Positions 13,727 to 20,256 of a DNA stretch of 64,000 bases are shown piece by piece; the first letter of the stretch is position 1; each line of letters starts with the position of its first letter. The stretch is from Actinotalea endophytica (lineage in GTDB: Bacteria; Actinomycetota; Actinomycetes; Actinomycetales; Cellulomonadaceae). The translations under genes were made by a program, and so were the position numbers. Under the pieces are notes generated by a model. That model did no database searches and was not told where the DNA came from. It saw nothing but the letters and a program-made list of their open reading frames with translations. The stretch is from NCBI RefSeq assembly GCF_025717005.1, contig NZ_JAOVZU010000008.1:161312-225311 (forward strand). Reading direction: 5' to 3'.

Positions 13727-13740
13727 GGTTGTCACAAACC
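13727..13740 (+). promoter_or_regulatory. Shared GTTGTCACAAAC element upstream of the S8 homologue
   Basis: GGTTGTCACAAACC, 62 bases before the ATG at 13802. The 12-base core is identical to one upstream of the sigma gene (minus strand, 20245-20256). TGTCACA resembles minus-35 elements of some ECF sigma groups, and TTGT.ACAA is also a short dyad, so it may be a sigma -35 box or an operator. No conserved -10 was recognised. Confidence 0.6.
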
Positions 13741-13801
13741 GGGCACGGAGTGCTCTCGACCGGGTGAGGACCCGCACCGGGCCACCGAGGAGAGGATCCC
13801 G

Positions 13802-14635
13802 ATGACCGTGACCACCCGACCCGCCGGTCTCACCGGTCGCGACGACCTGCAGCGCCCCGCACCGGTCCGCCCGGCCGGCGTGCCGGCCCCGGCGCCGCTC
13901 GACTGCCTGGACTGGCTCACCCGCTCGGCCCGGCCGAGCACCACCGTGCCCAGCGTGCCGGTGCCGCCGCGGTCCGCGAACGCCGGCGCGGGTCGACGCA
14001 TCGCGCTCCTGGACGGCGGCGTCGACACCCAGCACCCCGACCTGGCAGGTGCGCGGGTCCGCGTGTGGTCCGGCGGACCGGACACCGTCGACGACCACGC
14101 CACCGGCCTCGCATCCCTCGTGGTCGGCCAGGGCGCGGCGCACGTGCGCGGCCTGCTCCCGGCCGCCGAGCTGCTCGTCGCGGCGGTCCGGCCGGACCGC
14201 GAGGGTGGCGACGCGGTCGTCGCCCGGGCGGTGCGGTGGGCGGTCAACCACGGCGCCGAGGTGATCGTGCTCCCGTTCGGGCGTCAGCGGCTCGGACGAC
14301 GGATCACCACCACGCTGCACGAGGCCATGGCATCCGGGGTCCGGGTGTTCGCCGCCGCCGGCAACCTCGGCCCCGAGGTGCTGGCCTTCCCCGCCGCCGT
14401 CACCGGGGTGGTCGCCGTCACCGGTCACGACGGTCAACGCGTCCTCGCCCAGTGCTGCGAGCGCGCCGACCTCGCCGCACCCGGGTACGACGTGCCGGCA
14501 GCCGGACCGCGGCGCCGCGCCTACCTGCAGGGATGCGGCCCCGCCGCGGTGCTGGCCGCCGCGTCACACCTCGCCTGGGTCGACGCCGGCTCGCGCCCCG
14601 AAGCACGCGAGCGGGACGGGCTCCTCGGCGGCTGA
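13802..14635 (+). CDS. Subtilisin-fold (S8) protein lacking the catalytic serine
   Basis: 277 residues with no signal peptide. The S8 landmarks occur in order: Asp71 (LLDGGVDTQHPDL), His99 (DDHATGLASL) and oxyanion Asn188 (AAAGNLG). The position of the usual GTSxAAP motif reads GCGPAAV at 244-250, so Gly246 replaces the nucleophile. It is therefore predicted to be a proteolytically dead homologue. The start ATG has a good ribosome binding site (GAGGAGAGG). It converges with the TPR-CHAT gene, the two 3' ends overlapping by 72 bases, and carries upstream the motif shared with the sigma operon. Possible roles are a decoy, a substrate, or a regulator of the active S8 protein; no evidence separates these. 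Confidence 0.85.
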   Translation: MTVTTRPAGLTGRDDLQRPAPVRPAGVPAPAPLDCLDWLTRSARPSTTVPSVPVPPRSANAGAGRRIALLDGGVDTQHPDLAGARVRVWSGGPDTVDDHATGLASLVVGQGAAHVRGLLPAAELLVAAVRPDREGGDAVVARAVRWAVNHGAEVIVLPFGRQRLGRRITTTLHEAMASGVRVFAAAGNLGPEVLAFPAAVTGVVAVTGHDGQRVLAQCCERADLAAPGYDVPAAGPRRRAYLQGCGPAAVLAAASHLAWVDAGSRPEARERDGLLGG

Positions 14636-17158
14636 CAGGACGCCGGCCAGCGCTGCGGCCGGGTCGACGCCCTGCCGGATCGCCGCGTGCAGGTGTGGTG
14701 CGAGGTCGGCTGCGACGTCGTCGCGCAGCGGGGTCAGGGCCGCCACGACGTTCTCGGCGCCGAGCCGCAGCAGCACGCTCGCCATGCCGAGCGCCTCGCC
14801 ACCTGGCCGCACGGTGGACCGGCCGACCTCGCACGCCGAGAGCACCACGACCGACCCACGCAGGTCCGCACCCTCGAGCTCGTGCGCGAACAGCGGGCCG
14901 TCGGCGAGCCGTACCCAGGAGAAGAGCGGGTTGTCGGGCTCGTGACGACCGTGCACCGCGAGGTGGACCACGCCGGCGCTGCGCAGACCGGCTGCGACCG
15001 ACTCCGTGGCCGCGGCAGCACCTGCCAGCACGGTGGCGTCGCCCCACGCACGGGCCACCGCTGCGGCTTCGTCCTCGGCAAGCGTGAGCCCGGGTCCGGC
15101 CACCGCCAGCACGCCGTCCTTGCGCGGCGCCGGCGCCTGCGCGGTCAGCCGGCTCCCCACGCTGGTCGCGAGCCCCCGGCGGGAGGGCAGCAGGCCCCAC
15201 GGCAGGGCGACGAACGTGCCGCCGGCCGCCAGCTGCACGGGACCGTGCAGGTCCAGCGGCGCGAGCAGGAGCTCGTCGAGCCTGGCCAGCCCGCGCTCGA
15301 GCGAGCCTCGCACCACGGCCCGCAGCGCGTCGGGCAGGTGAACCCCGGCCAGTGCTCGCAGGTCCGCGTCCACCCGGCGCGCGGCCGCAGCCACCACGTC
15401 GACCTCGGCGAGGTGGTGCAGCCGGACCCCGTCGCCGTCCACCACGACCGCATGCACCTGGCCGCCGATGCCGACGAGGTCGACCACCGCCTCGTCGCCG
15501 CCCGCCAGCTCGTCGACCAGCCGGGCCGCGGTCGGCGCCTCCGGCGGCCCGACCTCGCCGTCGAGATGCCACGACCGTTGGCGCGCCGCGGTGCGCAACC
15601 GCTCGACCTCCCGGTGCGCCTCCGCACGGTCCGCGTGGCTGTCCGGCGGGAGCAGGCGTTCCCGCTCGACGGCGAACCTGAGCTCGGCAAGGAGCTCGGC
15701 CAGTGCCGGGTCGGACGGCGGGCGGACCCGCGCCGGGCCGGCGAACGTCGCCCGCCCTCGCTCGACCGCGTCGAGCACTCGGGCCGCGTCCCCGGAGCTG
15801 AGCGCAGCAGCACTCTCGACGACCACGAGCCGCTCACCGTGCACGGCCGCCGCGGTCACGGCCTCGACCGAGCCGAACTGCCGGCGGTGCGCCGCGAGGA
15901 GCCGCTGACCGGCCCGGACCTCGCGACGACCGTCCGACGCGCGACCGTTCGCGAACGCCAGCTCGGCGCGGACCGCGCGCAGCCCGAGGGCCAGGGTGAG
16001 CGGGTCGCGGGCACGGGCTCGGCCCGCGGCCTCGAGTGCTGCCGCCGCCTCGCGCCGATGCCCGCCAGTGACCAGGGCCGACGCCCCGACCACCTGTGCC
16101 GCGCGCACGACCGAGCGGGGGCTGCCCGCGGCCTCGAGCCGGCCCGCGAGGTCGGCCGACCGCCGCGCGATCCGCGCGCACGCGGCCCGGTCGGGTGCGT
16201 CGAGGACCAGGTCCAGCCGCGCCCGCAGCTCGGCGAGCTCCGCGCGGGCAGCCCACGAGACGTTGCCACGCCGCGCGAGGCGTCGTTTGGCTCCGAGCGC
16301 CCAGCGCAGGGCCGCCTGCGGTCGGTGCAGCAGCAGAGCGCACTCCGACCGCACGAGCTCGGCCTGGGCCAGGTCCAGCGAGAGGCGCTGGGCCGCGAAG
16401 AGCTCGGCGGCCTGGGCCAGGGTCTCGTCGGCCTCGTGCACGAGCCCCGCCTCGAGCAGCACCTGCGCACGGTCCGCGAGCGCGACCCCGAGCGAGACGT
16501 CCCCCGGGCTCTCGGCCGCCCTGGCCATCGTGGCGAGCGCCCGGGGCAGGTCGCCCGCGAGGAACTCGGCGTAGCCGAGGTTGTGCCGCGCCTTGAAACC
16601 GAGACCGTGCTCGCCGAGGCCGTCGGCCAGCTCCGCACACGCCCGCAGGTCCGCCCTGGCGGGCTCGATCTCGCCGAGCTCGAGACGCAGCGAGCCGCGG
16701 TTGAGCAGGATCCGGCAGGCGTCGATCGGCTCCGCGTCGCCCAGCCGGGCCGCCGCACGGTCCAGCGCGGCCAGGGCACGCGCGGTGTCCCCCGACCGGA
16801 GCCACAGCAGCCCCTGCTGACCGGCGACCGCGACCCGGAGCGCGTCGGCACCTGCCACGGCCGCCCAGCGGTCGGCGTCGCCGAGCACGGCCAGACCGGC
16901 GTCGACGTCGGCGCGGAGCTCGAACTCGCTCATCACCCGGCCGAGCAGGGCGCGAGCGCGCAGGTACGCGCGCTCCGCGGTCTCCCGGTCGGGGTCGGCG
17001 CTGCCGTCACCGACGGCGTCGAGCACCCGCCGGAAGTACCGTCCGGCCACCGCGGGCCGGCCGTCGGCGTTGCTCTTCAGGCCGGCCGCCAGCAGGCCGC
17101 GGACGGGCTCGAGCGGGTCCGGCCCGCCCGTCCCCGCGCTCGTGCCGCCCCGACCCAC
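14564..17158 (-). CDS. TPR-CHAT protease-like protein
   Basis: About 864 residues. The N-terminal two thirds is a long Ala/Leu/Arg-rich helical solenoid typical of degenerate TPR repeats (for example ALAALDRAAARLGDAEPI and DLPRALATMARAAE). The C-terminal third is a CHAT domain of the caspase-like clan CD. The His is in VHLAVHGRHEPDNP (His736) and the Cys in VVVLSACEVG (Cys776), so the dyad is intact. CHAT proteins are often triggered proteases in conflict or signalling systems. The start is uncertain: GTG 17156-17158 is chosen because it leaves a 100-base gap to the preceding S8 gene and begins just before conserved-looking helical sequence. It is the last gene of the sigma operon; its 3' end overlaps the opposing S8 homologue by 72 bases. 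Confidence 0.85.
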   Translation of the reverse strand: MGRGGTSAGTGGPDPLEPVRGLLAAGLKSNADGRPAVAGRYFRRVLDAVGDGSADPDRETAERAYLRARALLGRVMSEFELRADVDAGLAVLGDADRWAAVAGADALRVAVAGQQGLLWLRSGDTARALAALDRAAARLGDAEPIDACRILLNRGSLRLELGEIEPARADLRACAELADGLGEHGLGFKARHNLGYAEFLAGDLPRALATMARAAESPGDVSLGVALADRAQVLLEAGLVHEADETLAQAAELFAAQRLSLDLAQAELVRSECALLLHRPQAALRWALGAKRRLARRGNVSWAARAELAELRARLDLVLDAPDRAACARIARRSADLAGRLEAAGSPRSVVRAAQVVGASALVTGGHRREAAAALEAAGRARARDPLTLALGLRAVRAELAFANGRASDGRREVRAGQRLLAAHRRQFGSVEAVTAAAVHGERLVVVESAAALSSGDAARVLDAVERGRATFAGPARVRPPSDPALAELLAELRFAVERERLLPPDSHADRAEAHREVERLRTAARQRSWHLDGEVGPPEAPTAARLVDELAGGDEAVVDLVGIGGQVHAVVVDGDGVRLHHLAEVDVVAAAARRVDADLRALAGVHLPDALRAVVRGSLERGLARLDELLLAPLDLHGPVQLAAGGTFVALPWGLLPSRRGLATSVGSRLTAQAPAPRKDGVLAVAGPGLTLAEDEAAAVARAWGDATVLAGAAAATESVAAGLRSAGVVHLAVHGRHEPDNPLFSWVRLADGPLFAHELEGADLRGSVVVLSACEVGRSTVRPGGEALGMASVLLRLGAENVVAALTPLRDDVAADLAPHLHAAIRQGVDPAAALAGVLSAAEEPVPLACFGARAGVDPGEV

Positions 17159-17258
17159 CGGCTGATCATCCCGCCGTGCCGAGTCCGTGTCACGACGACA
17201 CGGGACGGCCGACCGGGGAGCCCGATGACGGCGGTCGGCCGCGCCCGCGGTACGCGAC

Positions 17259-18938
17259 CTACGGCAACGGGAGGCCGGTCGCCGCGACGATCGCGTGCCA
17301 CGCCGCCTCGCGACGTTCCTTGGCCCGCGCCTGCCAGTCCGCGCCGCCCCCGCCGCCGGCCGCACGCCGCCGGAGCAGCTCCTCGGCGAGGTCGCCGGCC
17401 ATCACGGGGGCCGCGAACGAGGTGCCGCTCCACACCCCGAAGCCGCCGGTGAACCCGTCGGGGTCGACCGTCGCCCGCGTCTCACGCGGCCGCAGGCCGC
17501 GCAGCGCAACGGTGGGTGTCAGGGAGCCGTTCATCGTGACCGGGAACGTGCTGACCACCGCGGCCCCCGTGCGCAGCGCCGTCACCCAGTCCCCGTCGTT
17601 GCTCATCAGCGCCGTCGAGCCGTCCGGGTTGAGCGCACCGACGGTCACCACCGGCGGCAGGTCCCACGATCCGGGGGTGACCGGTGTCGGCGGGTCCCAC
17701 GAGCTCAGCCGGGGCGCGAACGCCGCGGGGTAGCACGGCCGCGTGGTCGCGTCGTTGCCCGCCGAGACCACGACGGCCACGCCGTAGCGGGCGAGCGCGT
17801 CGAGCAGCGCGCGGAACGGGCCGTCGAACTCGGCGTCCTCCGGGCGCTCGTGGTAGTAGCCGAGCGAGAGGGTCAGGACGTCGACCGGGTGGCAGCCGGG
17901 CCGCCCGAGCAGACCGAGCAGGTGGAAGAGGAGCACTCGGCGCAGACCGGTGAGCAGGTCGGACTCCGCGATCATCCCGTCACCGCCGTACAGCCGGCAG
18001 GCGAGCACGGTCGAGTCGGGGCACCGCTGGTGCACGAGGCCGGTGATGAAGGTTCCGTGCGGCGCGCAGGAGTCGAGGCTGCCGGTCAGCGGGCGCCCGT
18101 CCATCCCGCCGACGTCGGCGTCGCGCCAGTGCGGCTCGGTCGGTGGGTACGGGCCGATCGGGACGCCGAGCACCTGCGGGTCACGCACCACGGTGTCGCC
18201 GACGAACCAGGGGTGCTCGCCGGCACCGGTGTCGAGCACGACCACCACCGGCCGCGCCGGCCCCTTGCCGGAACCGTCCACCGTGGCGTCCGGGTACCGC
18301 CTCGAGGGCGCCGGGCCGACCCACGCGACCGGGCTGCGGCCCCCGCTCCCGGCGCGGGCGTACTCGCCCACGGCGTCAGGCGCCGTGTACGGGTGGGGCT
18401 CGGTGTAGGGGTGGGGCTCGGTGTACGGGTGCGGCTCGGTGTAGGGATGGGGCTCGGTGTACGGGTGCGGCTCGGTGTACGGGTTCCCGACGATCCCCGT
18501 GGCGACCACGAGGTGGTCGAGCGACGCGAGCACACCGGCCTTGTCGACCAGCGCCTCCAGCACCGGCCACACGTCGACCGGCTCGGCGATCGCACGGTTC
18601 TCCAGCTGGGCGGTGTAGCCGAAGGCCGCGTAGAGCTCGGCCGCGAGCTCCTCGGGCAGATCCGCCTGGCGCAGCAGCTCGAGGTCGCGCTCGTCGCGGG
18701 CGTCGAGACTCACCCGCAGACCCCGCTCCTCGGCGAGCTCCTCGAGCACCTGCCAGCCTTCCGACCCCGGCGCCCCGGCCATCAGGAGCCGGTCACGCAG
18801 GTACCACGTGGTCTGCACCGGCATGGCCTGCGGTCGCTGCGGCGCCGTCGCCGGGTCCAGCCGGAGCAGGCGACCCGCCCAGGAGCGGGGCAGATCCCCG
18901 TACGCACCCTCGTCGGCCCGGCCGTCGTTCTCCACCAT
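17259..18938 (-). CDS. Cytoplasmic S8 (subtilisin) peptidase with PYTEPH repeats
   Basis: 559 residues with no signal peptide or membrane segment, so probably cytoplasmic, unusual for subtilases. An N-terminal region (1-150) of unknown fold is followed by a hexapeptide linker, PYTEPH five times then PYTAPD (about 153-188). The peptidase domain has Asp236 (VVVLDTGAGEHP), His294 (APHGTFITGL), Asn395 (VVSAGND) and Ser507 (SGTSFAAP), all present, so it should be active. A large insertion lies between His and Asn. It sits 39 bases after the 160-aa protein gene and 100 bases before TPR-CHAT, in one operon with the sigma factor. There is no recognisable propeptide. Confidence 0.9.
   Translation of the reverse strand: MVENDGRADEGAYGDLPRSWAGRLLRLDPATAPQRPQAMPVQTTWYLRDRLLMAGAPGSEGWQVLEELAEERGLRVSLDARDERDLELLRQADLPEELAAELYAAFGYTAQLENRAIAEPVDVWPVLEALVDKAGVLASLDHLVVATGIVGNPYTEPHPYTEPHPYTEPHPYTEPHPYTEPHPYTAPDAVGEYARAGSGGRSPVAWVGPAPSRRYPDATVDGSGKGPARPVVVVLDTGAGEHPWFVGDTVVRDPQVLGVPIGPYPPTEPHWRDADVGGMDGRPLTGSLDSCAPHGTFITGLVHQRCPDSTVLACRLYGGDGMIAESDLLTGLRRVLLFHLLGLLGRPGCHPVDVLTLSLGYYHERPEDAEFDGPFRALLDALARYGVAVVVSAGNDATTRPCYPAAFAPRLSSWDPPTPVTPGSWDLPPVVTVGALNPDGSTALMSNDGDWVTALRTGAAVVSTFPVTMNGSLTPTVALRGLRPRETRATVDPDGFTGGFGVWSGTSFAAPVMAGDLAEELLRRRAAGGGGGADWQARAKERREAAWHAIVAATGLPLP
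18385..18492. repeat. 18-bp in-frame tandem repeat encoding PYTEPH
   Basis: Five close copies of an 18-base unit plus a partial sixth (18385-18402, 18403-18420, 18421-18438, 18439-18456, 18457-18474, 18475-18492), inside the S8 gene. Units differ mainly at synonymous positions (CCG/CCC, CAC/CAT), so the amino-acid repeat is kept while the DNA drifts. The copy number is likely variable between strains. Confidence 0.95.
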
Positions 18939-18977
18939 CTACGCCTCCTCGCGCATGCCTCGCACGTCGTTGACTCT

Positions 18978-19460
18978 CTAGAGCTCGATCACCGGCGTGC
19001 TGACCGCCGGCCCGGTGCCGTCCGTGCGCCGGAGCACCAGGCTCGCCGGCCCGCGGGGCAGGTCCTCGATGACGAAGCAGCCCTCGTCGTCGGACTCGGT
19101 GCGGACCTCGCCCTCCGGACGCAGCACGTCCACGGTGCACCGCATCGCGGGCGCCACCCAGCCGTCGATCCGCACGCCGGCCTCGCCGGGCGACACGGTG
19201 ATCATGACGGTGCAGGGGTCGGCCGTGAACGTGATCGTCCGGGCCGTCACCGTCTCCTCGCCACGCAGGGCGAGCTCCGGGGTCTCCATCCGCACCAGCT
19301 CGACCATCTCGGCCTGCAGGTCGGCGAGCGTGAGGGCGAAGAGCGAACGCTCCGCCAGCCCGTCGGGCACCGGGTCCACCTGCTGCACCACACGGCCCAG
19401 GTGCGTCAGCAGCTCCCGATCGCGGGCATCCATCACCTCGTCGGGCGAGTACTCGCTCAT
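18978..19460 (-). CDS. Helix plus beta-sandwich protein coupled to the sigma factor
   Basis: 160 residues, not assigned to a named family. Residues 1-65 are charged and helical (DRELLTHLGRVVQQVDPVPD, ERSLFALTLADLQAEMVELV). Residues 68-160 are beta-rich and resemble carboxypeptidase-regulatory or CNA-B-like sandwiches (VRIDGWVAP, GEVRTESDDEGCFVIEDLPR). There is no zinc-binding anti-sigma motif and no membrane helix. Its ATG overlaps the sigma stop by 4 bases (ATGA), so it is probably made in fixed ratio with the sigma factor. Position suggests an unconventional anti-sigma factor, or a protease substrate that holds the sigma factor; this is inference. Confidence 0.8.
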   Translation of the reverse strand: MSEYSPDEVMDARDRELLTHLGRVVQQVDPVPDGLAERSLFALTLADLQAEMVELVRMETPELALRGEETVTARTITFTADPCTVMITVSPGEAGVRIDGWVAPAMRCTVDVLRPEGEVRTESDDEGCFVIEDLPRGPASLVLRRTDGTGPAVSTPVIEL

Positions 19461-20077
19461 GCCCACTCCCACCTCTCGTCCTGGTCCAGCAACGTGCGCA
19501 GCTTGGCGAGGCACCGGCCCCTGGTGACGCCGACCGCGGTCACCTTCATGCCGGTCACCTCCGCGATCGCCCGGTAGTCCGGCCGGTCGGCGCTCGCCAC
19601 GAAGCGGAGGATCTGCTGGCATCGCGCCGGCAGCCGCAGGAACACCTGCCAGAGACGGCTGTCGCGGTCGTGGGTGAGGACCTCGGCCTCCGGGCCCGGC
19701 GACGGCGACGGCAGCTCGCCGGCCTCGTCGGTGTCGTCCGGAAGCTCGCGCGTGTGCGCCTGGTCCCCGCGCTGACGGCGGACCGCCAGCCACGCCGCAC
19801 GCCGCGCGCTGACCAGCAGCCAGGCGAGCAGGGCCTCCGGCTCGCGGATCGTCCCGGTGTGCCGCACGAAGGAGAGCCACACACCCTGCACGACGTCCTC
19901 GGCGTCCTCGCGCGGCACGCCCTGGCCGCGCACCACGTGCCACAGCAGCGGCGTCGCCTCGTGGACGAAGTCCTCCAGGGGTGCGGTGCGTCCCTCGCGG
20001 TACGCGAGCAGCGCGAGCGCCGCCCGGTCCCCGAGGGTCGTGTCGCCGGTGTGTCCCGTCATCGCCTGCCGATTCAT
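19457..20077 (-). CDS. ECF-type RNA polymerase sigma factor
   Basis: 206 residues. The region 2 segment is about residues 25-95 (FVHEATPLLWHVVRGQGV, EDAEDVVQGVWLSFVRH, ALLAWLLVSARRAAW). The region 4 helix-turn-helix is at the C-terminus (RLPARCQQILRF, DYRAIAEVTGMKVTAVGVTR). There is no region 1 or 3 of the housekeeping type. The start ATG 20075-20077 is chosen; ATG 20062 is possible and neither has a strong ribosome binding site. It is the first gene of the operon sigma, 160-aa protein, S8 peptidase, TPR-CHAT. No classical anti-sigma gene adjoins. The motif at 20245-20256 suggests autoregulation. Confidence 0.88.
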   Translation of the reverse strand: MNRQAMTGHTGDTTLGDRAALALLAYREGRTAPLEDFVHEATPLLWHVVRGQGVPREDAEDVVQGVWLSFVRHTGTIREPEALLAWLLVSARRAAWLAVRRQRGDQAHTRELPDDTDEAGELPSPSPGPEAEVLTHDRDSRLWQVFLRLPARCQQILRFVASADRPDYRAIAEVTGMKVTAVGVTRGRCLAKLRTLLDQDERWEWA

Positions 20078-20244
20078 CGACGGCCGTCCCGCCCACTCGG
20101 CGGCGGTCCCGCCAGAGTTGTCGAGACTACGGTCGCCGCGGTGGCCACGCCAGGGGTGCAGGGTGCGCGCATCGGCCACCTCCCGGGGTCGTGGGCGCCT
20201 GCTGCGGCGGACCCGTTCACCCTGGAGGGAGGTCGTCGAGCACC

Positions 20245-20256
20245 GTTTGTGACAAC
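20245..20256 (-). promoter_or_regulatory. Shared GTTGTCACAAAC element upstream of the sigma gene
   Basis: On the minus strand GTTGTCACAAAC, 168 bases upstream of the sigma ATG. It is identical over 12 bases to the element at 13729-13740 upstream of the S8 homologue. It is the most recognisable feature in the 324-base divergent gap 20078-20401, which otherwise holds only untranslated leaders of the sigma and asparaginase genes. Confidence 0.6.

Follow-up and report, generated by a model that had tools for sequence, protein, structure and literature searches.

A conserved sigma factor, p160, and TPR-CHAT protease module in Actinotalea endophytica and related bacteria: a possible protease-gated transcription switch in the cytoplasm

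The window, by which we mean the whole stretch of 64,000 nucleotides of Actinotalea endophytica that was analyzed (contig NZ_JAOVZU010000008.1, positions 161,312 to 225,311), carries on its minus strand, at 14564-20077, four intact genes in the order sigma factor, p160 (a protein of 160 amino acids), S8 peptidase, and TPR-CHAT protein. A preliminary description of this DNA had claimed such an operon, and the genes, their order, their strand, and their intactness are all borne out. It also had p160 translated with the sigma factor through an ATGA sequence, and the start codon of p160 indeed overlaps the stop codon of the sigma factor gene. It overlooked a gene on the plus strand at the left edge (13802-14635), whose 3′ end overlaps the CHAT gene. 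The features of the region are as follows.

19457-20077 (stop codon included), minus strand: ECF-type sigma factor, 206 amino acids (TIGR02937, Sigma70_r2), in an ECF54-like neighborhood
18978-19460, minus strand: p160, 160 amino acids, with two N-terminal helices, a disordered linker, and a CarboxypepD_reg-like beta-sandwich; candidate soluble anti-sigma factor
19263-19265, minus strand: codon for Arg66 of p160, near-invariant in the linker; candidate P1 residue of a CHAT cut between R and G, S, or A
17259-18938, minus strand: cytoplasmic S8 peptidase, 559 amino acids, with intact catalytic triad and oxyanion Asn
18385-18484, minus strand: tandem array in the S8 linker, 18 bp × 5.6, coding for (PYTEPH)n
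14564-17158, minus strand: TPR-CHAT protease, 864 amino acids, GTG start, His736/Cys776
20227-20254, minus strand: predicted autoregulatory promoter of the sigma operon, TGTCAC-N17-CTCC
13730-13757, plus strand: second copy of the predicted promoter, with one mismatch, upstream of the pseudo-subtilisin gene
13802-14635, plus strand: convergent subtilisin-like pseudoprotease (pseudo-subtilisin), 277 amino acids, catalytic Ser replaced by Gly; possibly of the same regulon

Both proteases of the operon have the residues expected of active enzymes. The CHAT domain is recognized well above its cutoff (PF12770, 80.4 bits versus a cutoff of 24), and the His/Cys dyad that had been read from the sequence is present and conserved: H736 and C776 are retained in all 78 alignment rows with a letter at these positions (102 rows in total). 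Sequences of solved structures matched by the protein are those of TPR and CHAT/Csx29 proteins. The S8 peptidase passes its Pfam cutoff in a profile scan, and the claim that it is intact is upheld by its relatives, in which D236 is conserved in 63/63 rows, and H294, N395, and S507 in 75/75 (rows with a letter there, of 104). Its supposed lack of a signal peptide also extends to the family, with no signal-like N-terminal stretch in 146 of 147 unique sequences by simple hydropathy. The CHAT profile has one further match elsewhere in the window's genome, a partial one (G000:C15:373540-374052, E = 7e−36).

The sigma factor passes the ECF cutoff (TIGR02937, 63 bits versus a cutoff of 42.9) and matches Sigma70_r2 above the cutoff (34.4 bits), while region 4 stays under its cutoff. 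It is probably a member of group ECF54, an assignment made by neighborhood and not by an ECF54 profile. In the consulted part of a 2022 review (PMC8999054), ECF54 sigma factors, of which SFT86700.1 is a named member, have conserved neighbors with carboxypeptidase, subtilase, and CHAT domains, and the loci studied here have neighbors of these types. Section 3.3 of the same review proposes that ECF54 is controlled by proteolysis without an anti-sigma factor, a view it credits to Casas-Pastor 2021 and Huang 2015. The co-occurrence of these genes is thus already published, at least in that source, and the module cannot be called an undescribed system, as the preliminary description had it. The association of the genes is known; as far as the searched literature shows, the mechanism is unestablished, and we found there no study of a CHAT/sigma factor mechanism, on which the primary ECF54 sources may say more. 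The "carboxypeptidase" of the review is most likely p160, for which a profile scan found no catalytic carboxypeptidase domain and only a subthreshold match to CarboxypepD_reg. In three of our loci (L124, L128, and L132), the sigma factor genes are called at about 370 amino acids or are split.

The arrangement is unlikely to be due to chance. In a first sample of 99 genomes, including the window's own, p160 was matched in 48 (E ≤ 0.001), and loci were cut around p160 in 40 of the other 47 genomes. A CHAT match lies within the stretch in 37 of these 40 loci and is missing from three; the exceptions among the 40 are a locus at a contig end (L032), one with a doubtful p160 (L069), one with no CHAT nearby (L066), and one with CHAT several kilobases off (L068). 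A second collection of 80 named loci, which partly overlaps the 40, has CHAT in 78 and S8 in 65 (stretches of up to ~6 kb per side); it includes Actinotalea, Cellulomonas, Cellulosimicrobium, Oerskovia, Promicromonospora, Isoptericola, Nocardioides, and Actinopolymorpha. The genes occur in the orders sigma-p160-S8-CHAT and S8-sigma-p160-CHAT, and also with CHAT divergent. Most loci of the window's family have the module between genes for 143 and ~239 amino acids on one side and genes for ~176 and 129 amino acids, followed by a long gene, on the other. From the lengths and reading of these neighbors, we take the flanking genes to be rplK-rplA and rplJ-rplL-rpoB. Tandem duplication of CHAT is seen in L049, L051, L054, L061, and several of L227-L256, in named loci of Promicromonospora and Antribacter.

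Across 394 genomes of the class, p160 (E ≤ 0.001) is found in 116 and a CHAT orthologue (E ≤ 1e−60) in 118, with both in 104, p160 only in 12, CHAT only in 14, and neither in 264 (Fisher test, P = 7.5e−65, uncorrected for phylogeny). When the 21 weaker p160 matches (E above about 1e−11) are dropped, 93 of the 95 genomes with strong matches have a CHAT orthologue, and the two that lack it are 75% and 78% complete. Ten of the 12 p160-only genomes have weak p160 matches, and the other two are incomplete; in 12 of the 14 CHAT-only genomes, wider profiles reveal a p160 gene close to CHAT, and one other has its CHAT at a contig end. In family f35, p160 was matched in 157 of 170 genomes, with at most five matches in a single genome, and several parallel modules may coexist there.

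The module can also be split. In the wider class, CHAT is present in 41 of 60 loci (L149, with a weak CHAT match, is left out of these), and 16 of the 19 loci without it belong to the single family f38, in whose split genomes p160 adjoins the sigma factor and not CHAT. Among 21 genomes with a p160 locus that has no CHAT nearby, or CHAT several kilobases off, a CHAT orthologue was found in 20, the miss being a 75%-complete genome. Of 20 CHAT loci examined in split-type genomes, 18 have S8 next to CHAT, with one called ORF between them in L172, and two are truncated at contig ends. We considered whether f38 p160 genes without proteases refute a link to proteolysis and rejected this, since CHAT is present elsewhere in these genomes with S8 beside it. 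The sigma factor and p160, rather than occurring mostly without proteases, are therefore nearly always accompanied by CHAT, split loci included. We regard sigma-p160-CHAT as the core of the module, a definition that is new in the present analysis.

What p160 does is central to the interpretation. It resembles no anti-sigma factor, as had been noted earlier: anti-sigma family profiles gave no match, profile scans and a family search recognized no anti-sigma domain, and the HxxxCxxC motif of zinc anti-sigma factors (ZAS, class I ASD) is absent. Its only Pfam match is CarboxypepD_reg (16.2 bits, below the cutoff of 32.3), a regulatory-like family also matched by 30 of the 37 members of p160 set A1 at E ≤ 0.1. 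The AlphaFold model has helices at residues 12-28 and 35-49, a segment with pLDDT < 50 at 61-69, and a seven-strand sandwich. In a Foldseek comparison of this structure with the PDB, none of the 763 matches (E ≤ 10) reached E ≤ 0.001, and sequences of solved structures gave three weak matches, the best to a NOMO protein (E = 0.01).

Within the low-confidence linker, Arg66 is the most conserved residue of p160 outside the sandwich (0.99, weighted, 116 sequences), and the columns around it are mostly less than 50% conserved. Of the 212 distinct sigma-p160 pairs that remain from 272 after removal of duplicates (low-coverage pairs excluded), 211 have Arg at this position, and in 199 of the 212 the residue that follows is G, S, or A. 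A regular expression for hydrophobic-R/K-small is matched by 106 of the 109 p160 sequences with an anchor, which is missing from seven of the 116; the anchor is misplaced in two of the three misses, and the third (L196) has R followed by D. Among the clan-CD relatives of CHAT, separase and paracaspase are examples of proteases that cleave behind an Arg. By analogy with these examples, R followed by a small residue is a plausible clan-CD protease site, and Arg66 is a candidate for the position at which CHAT would cut. It could alternatively be structural, for instance anchoring the start of the sandwich. The layout of p160, with helices, a flexible linker with one near-invariant Arg, and a sandwich, suits a cleavable inhibitor. 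Overlapping genes are common for sigma/anti-sigma pairs, and the relative reading frame of the sigma factor and p160 genes is identical in 82 of 98 loci.

Two other roles for p160 have to be weighed against that of an inhibitor. One is that of a chaperone or adaptor in a scheme without an anti-sigma factor, where the sigma factor itself is degraded by CHAT and S8 and so kept off. This scheme comes close to the view of ECF54 in the consulted part of PMC8999054. However, p160 has only a CarboxypepD_reg-like fold and is not a peptidase, S8 is dispensable (see below), and a near-invariant Arg in the linker and a gene that overlaps that of the sigma factor speak against it as well, so we consider direct degradation distinctly unlikely. 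The other is that p160 serves CHAT as a sensor or coactivator, with a ligand-binding sandwich and TPR-docking helices, and does not inhibit the sigma factor; Arg66 would then have a structural or docking role. The tight co-occurrence of p160 and CHAT agrees with such a role, as do diverged homologues in which the first core strand begins just a few residues after the Arg, and two of the 60 class loci (L140 and L146) in which p160 stands beside S8 and no sigma factor was detected. Against it, the p160 of split f38 genomes stays beside the sigma factor and away from CHAT, which better fits a partner of the sigma factor, and we judge the sensor role unlikely.

A contact between the two proteins was sought by modeling and by coevolution, and neither brought an interface to light. 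A read-through fusion of sigma factor and p160 from one locus (stop codon changed to Gly) was modeled with a mean pLDDT of 85.1 and a pTM of 0.50 and without an interface measure; of its 113 input alignment rows, only three were paired, and we count it neither for nor against an interaction. Mean-field couplings were computed for the 212 distinct pairs, a shallow set (Neff = 141). With the full alphabet, the maximum inter-protein z was 6.5 (20 shuffles: mean 6.0, maximum 7.8), and six couplings exceeded z = 5 versus a shuffle mean of 2.8. With a reduced alphabet, the maximum z of 8.6 was attained by one of 60 shuffles, and the 52 couplings with z > 4 (shuffle mean 30) by none of the 60. No localized block of couplings was found with this alphabet, as the observed block was attained in 55 of 60 shuffles. 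Because shared ancestry alone can produce such an excess and no localized block accompanies it, we rejected it as evidence of an interface.

The preliminary description left open whether S8 or CHAT would cleave p160. The evidence favors CHAT rather than S8 as the gate. In three near-complete genomes (G023, G026, and G057) that possess sigma-p160-CHAT, no match to S8 was found at E ≤ 1e−10, and Arg66 is retained in modules without S8 (L056, L057, L058, and L062), those of the three genomes (L057, L056, and L062) among them. A genome may have S8 even if its module does not, as in G033, where S8 is missing from the module and an S8 gene stands beside a second CHAT. The S8 gene is part of the sigma operon or, if it leads an operon, often follows a sigma-type promoter (22 of 75 cases); because of this position, it looks more like an output than a gate. 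That S8 is nevertheless the gating protease, with CHAT merely activating it, would fit the conservation of intact S8 in most loci and its pairing with CHAT in split modules, but given the modules that do without S8 and the promoters ahead of it, we see this as highly improbable. We conclude that p160 is probably the substrate of CHAT and that the further proteases are probably output.

The promoter in question emerged from a dyad search in 113 non-redundant regions upstream of sigma factor genes, in which GTATC-N17-CTCC occurs in 23, versus 0, 0, and 1 in shuffled sequences. We then counted the pattern GT(CA/AT)C-N16-18-C(C/T)C(C/T) in unique upstream sequences, among which near-duplicates remain. 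It precedes 86 of 120 sigma factor genes that come first in an operon and 1 of 38 internal ones; the corresponding counts are 22/75 and 3/81 for S8, 0/58 and 2/129 for CHAT, and 0/10 and 2/159 for p160, with 53/1037 for other leading genes. In the 120 sigma-first regions, from 34 of which the motif is missing, four scrambled motifs gave 1 to 5 matches, and shuffled sequences gave a mean of 3.2 and a maximum of 7. The spacer is 17 in 94 of 108 cases. The sigma-first count is not independent, since the upstream regions that were counted are also those that yielded the motif. More independent support comes from the S8-first operons, from the homologues of the pseudo-subtilisin (6 of 7), from repeat-bearing trypsin-like genes (12 of 12, or 10 after removal of two apparent duplicates), and from the window's own genome. 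In that genome, a strict pattern built after the sigma promoter has two matches (reversed control: 0), one being the sigma promoter and the other lying ~20 bases ahead of the start called for a 498-amino-acid Trypsin_2 protein (L387:1-1494, contig C12). Within the window alone, the two motif matches at ≤1 mismatch (1.62 expected) are not above chance, and the case for the promoter therefore rests on the comparative counts. From these, we infer that GT(CA/AT)C-N17-CTC(C/T) is the promoter of ECF54, a prediction from sequence patterns.

Near modules, the motif is also found upstream of a gene for a 993-amino-acid protein with HELGGH and no Pfam match (L147:2377-5355), an S8-VWA gene (L067:2605-6102), and genes for AAA-LuxR regulators (L152:12916-14853 and L153:8097-10775), all of which are possible further targets of the sigma factor. 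The pseudo-subtilisin is recognizably subtilisin-like (62.1 bits) and reads GCGPAA where active S8 peptidases have GTSFAA. It was found in seven loci of the window's genus in the sample, and by reading of the alignment, each of the seven homologues has at least one catalytic position changed. It is perhaps an inhibitor or decoy.

The S8 peptidases have a further peculiarity. Tandem arrays occur at one site before the catalytic domain in 53 of 136 sequences and in none of the 136 shuffled linkers (147 unique sequences, of which 11 could not be judged; several are near relatives), and 43 of the 53 arrays have a period of 6. The unit is PYTEPH in the window and elsewhere, among others, PFTQPL, PYSTPL, NPFHST, NPYGRT, or GYGDGV; short S8 peptidases have, by reading, a single related GGPATEP-like copy. 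At least three copies of P(Y/F/A)T-x-P were found in 13 of 2,072 other genes, 12 of which encode trypsin-like proteins, the 13th being the S8 of the window under another label. The loci in which these repeat-bearing trypsin-like genes adjoin the module are of the Cellulomonas type and have no S8. All 12 proteins have GDSG and a His motif; both of the two that were scanned fall below the Trypsin_2 cutoff. The S8 and trypsin-like proteins thus have P-(F/Y)-T-type tandem repeats in common, and two unrelated protease families of one predicted regulon would carry a common fast-changing, homogenized peptide array, which is surprising in its own right. The S8 linker was also considered as a substrate of CHAT, and rejected because the position of the Arg that follows the repeats varies between R and L.

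We propose, with a confidence that falls just short of even, that the module is a cytoplasmic protease-gated sigma factor switch, in which CHAT cuts p160 and the freed sigma factor drives its own operon and protease genes. Translated together with the sigma factor, p160 would bind it and keep it inactive. The TPR part of CHAT would take up a signal, upon which CHAT would cut the p160 linker between helices and sandwich, most likely after Arg66, and release the sigma factor. With RNA polymerase, the sigma factor would use the predicted promoter to transcribe its own operon, a positive feedback, as well as genes for other soluble proteases or their relatives, S8 included. These targets may differ by lineage: the repeat-bearing trypsin-like protease in Cellulomonas-type genomes, the pseudo-subtilisin in the window's genus, and another trypsin-like protease in the window's own genome. 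The P-(F/Y)-T repeats of S8 and the trypsin-like protease might be docking sites for a common partner, perhaps CHAT. A more elaborate form of this proposal, which we find speculative and rather less probable, is a transcriptional caspase cascade: CHAT as initiator would cut the anti-sigma factor between R and G, S, or A, the ECF54 sigma factor would induce soluble executioners of unrelated folds (S8 and trypsin-like) together with a pseudoprotease brake, and the fast-evolving, homogenized, lineage-varying P-(F/Y)-T arrays would address the proteases to a common partner.

The proposed logic, in which a protease cuts an inhibitor and an ECF sigma factor is freed, is that of RseA/DegS and RsiW. 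Those systems use site-1 and site-2 proteases, whereas here the protease is a cytoplasmic CHAT and no membrane protein was recognized. In type III-E CRISPR systems, according to the consulted part of PMC10028731, the TPR-CHAT protein Csx29 cleaves Csx30, an inhibitor of an ECF-like sigma factor. The Csx29-Csx30-CASP-sigma system resembles the module in its TPR-CHAT protein, partner, and ECF-like sigma factor, with cleavage of the partner proposed to release the sigma factor. However, the CHAT protein of the window scores 23.5 bits versus a curated Csx29 cutoff of 300, p160 differs from Csx30 (565 amino acids) in size and architecture, and p160 is present in more than a hundred of the sampled genomes of the class. 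No Cas gene was recognized among the neighbors of the window's module; the neighboring genes between 11 and 24 kb read as rpoB, nusG-like, and ribosomal protein genes, with no Cas7-11/CRISPR neighborhood. The ECF54 context of PMC8999054 shares the ECF sigma factor and the carboxypeptidase-, subtilase-, and CHAT-type neighbors. In its consulted part, the published scheme counts a carboxypeptidase, whereas we see in p160 a non-enzymatic protein with a candidate cut site. The present analysis also contributes a predicted promoter and regulon as well as the repeat arrays.

The predicted EACC2-caspase-ECF sigma-TPR systems likewise combine a caspase-like domain, an ECF sigma factor, and a TPR protein; they differ in their EACC2 and DUF1822 domains, and the consulted part of their description (PMC8195603) does not mention p160. 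These systems bear on the alternative that the module is an anti-phage or cell death defense, in which cells would be killed by the output proteases. Proteases of the caspase-like and trypsin-like kinds are a recurrent element of predicted conflict systems, and caspase systems coupled to ECF sigma factors and TPR proteins are described in that same part of PMC8195603. PADLOC gave weak matches, the best being "subtilase" for the pseudo-subtilisin (E = 2.3e−8), followed by S8 (E = 0.0022) and CHAT (E = 0.01). The position that the module keeps in most loci of the window's family, beside what we read as ribosomal protein and rpoB genes, however, suggests vertical inheritance and not a mobile defense island, and we consider a defense function very doubtful.

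Besides the definition of the core, new here are the linker Arg, the promoter-like motif, and the repeats common to S8 and trypsin-like proteins. The module is widespread (p160 in 116 of the 394 class genomes at E ≤ 0.001), and its proposed mechanism was not found in the searched literature. If the switch operates as we propose, it would offer one cut site, one promoter, and one docking motif, each of them testable. Control of a sigma factor by CHAT would then be a general logic of cytoplasmic signaling, of which the CRISPR-linked Csx29 would be one case.
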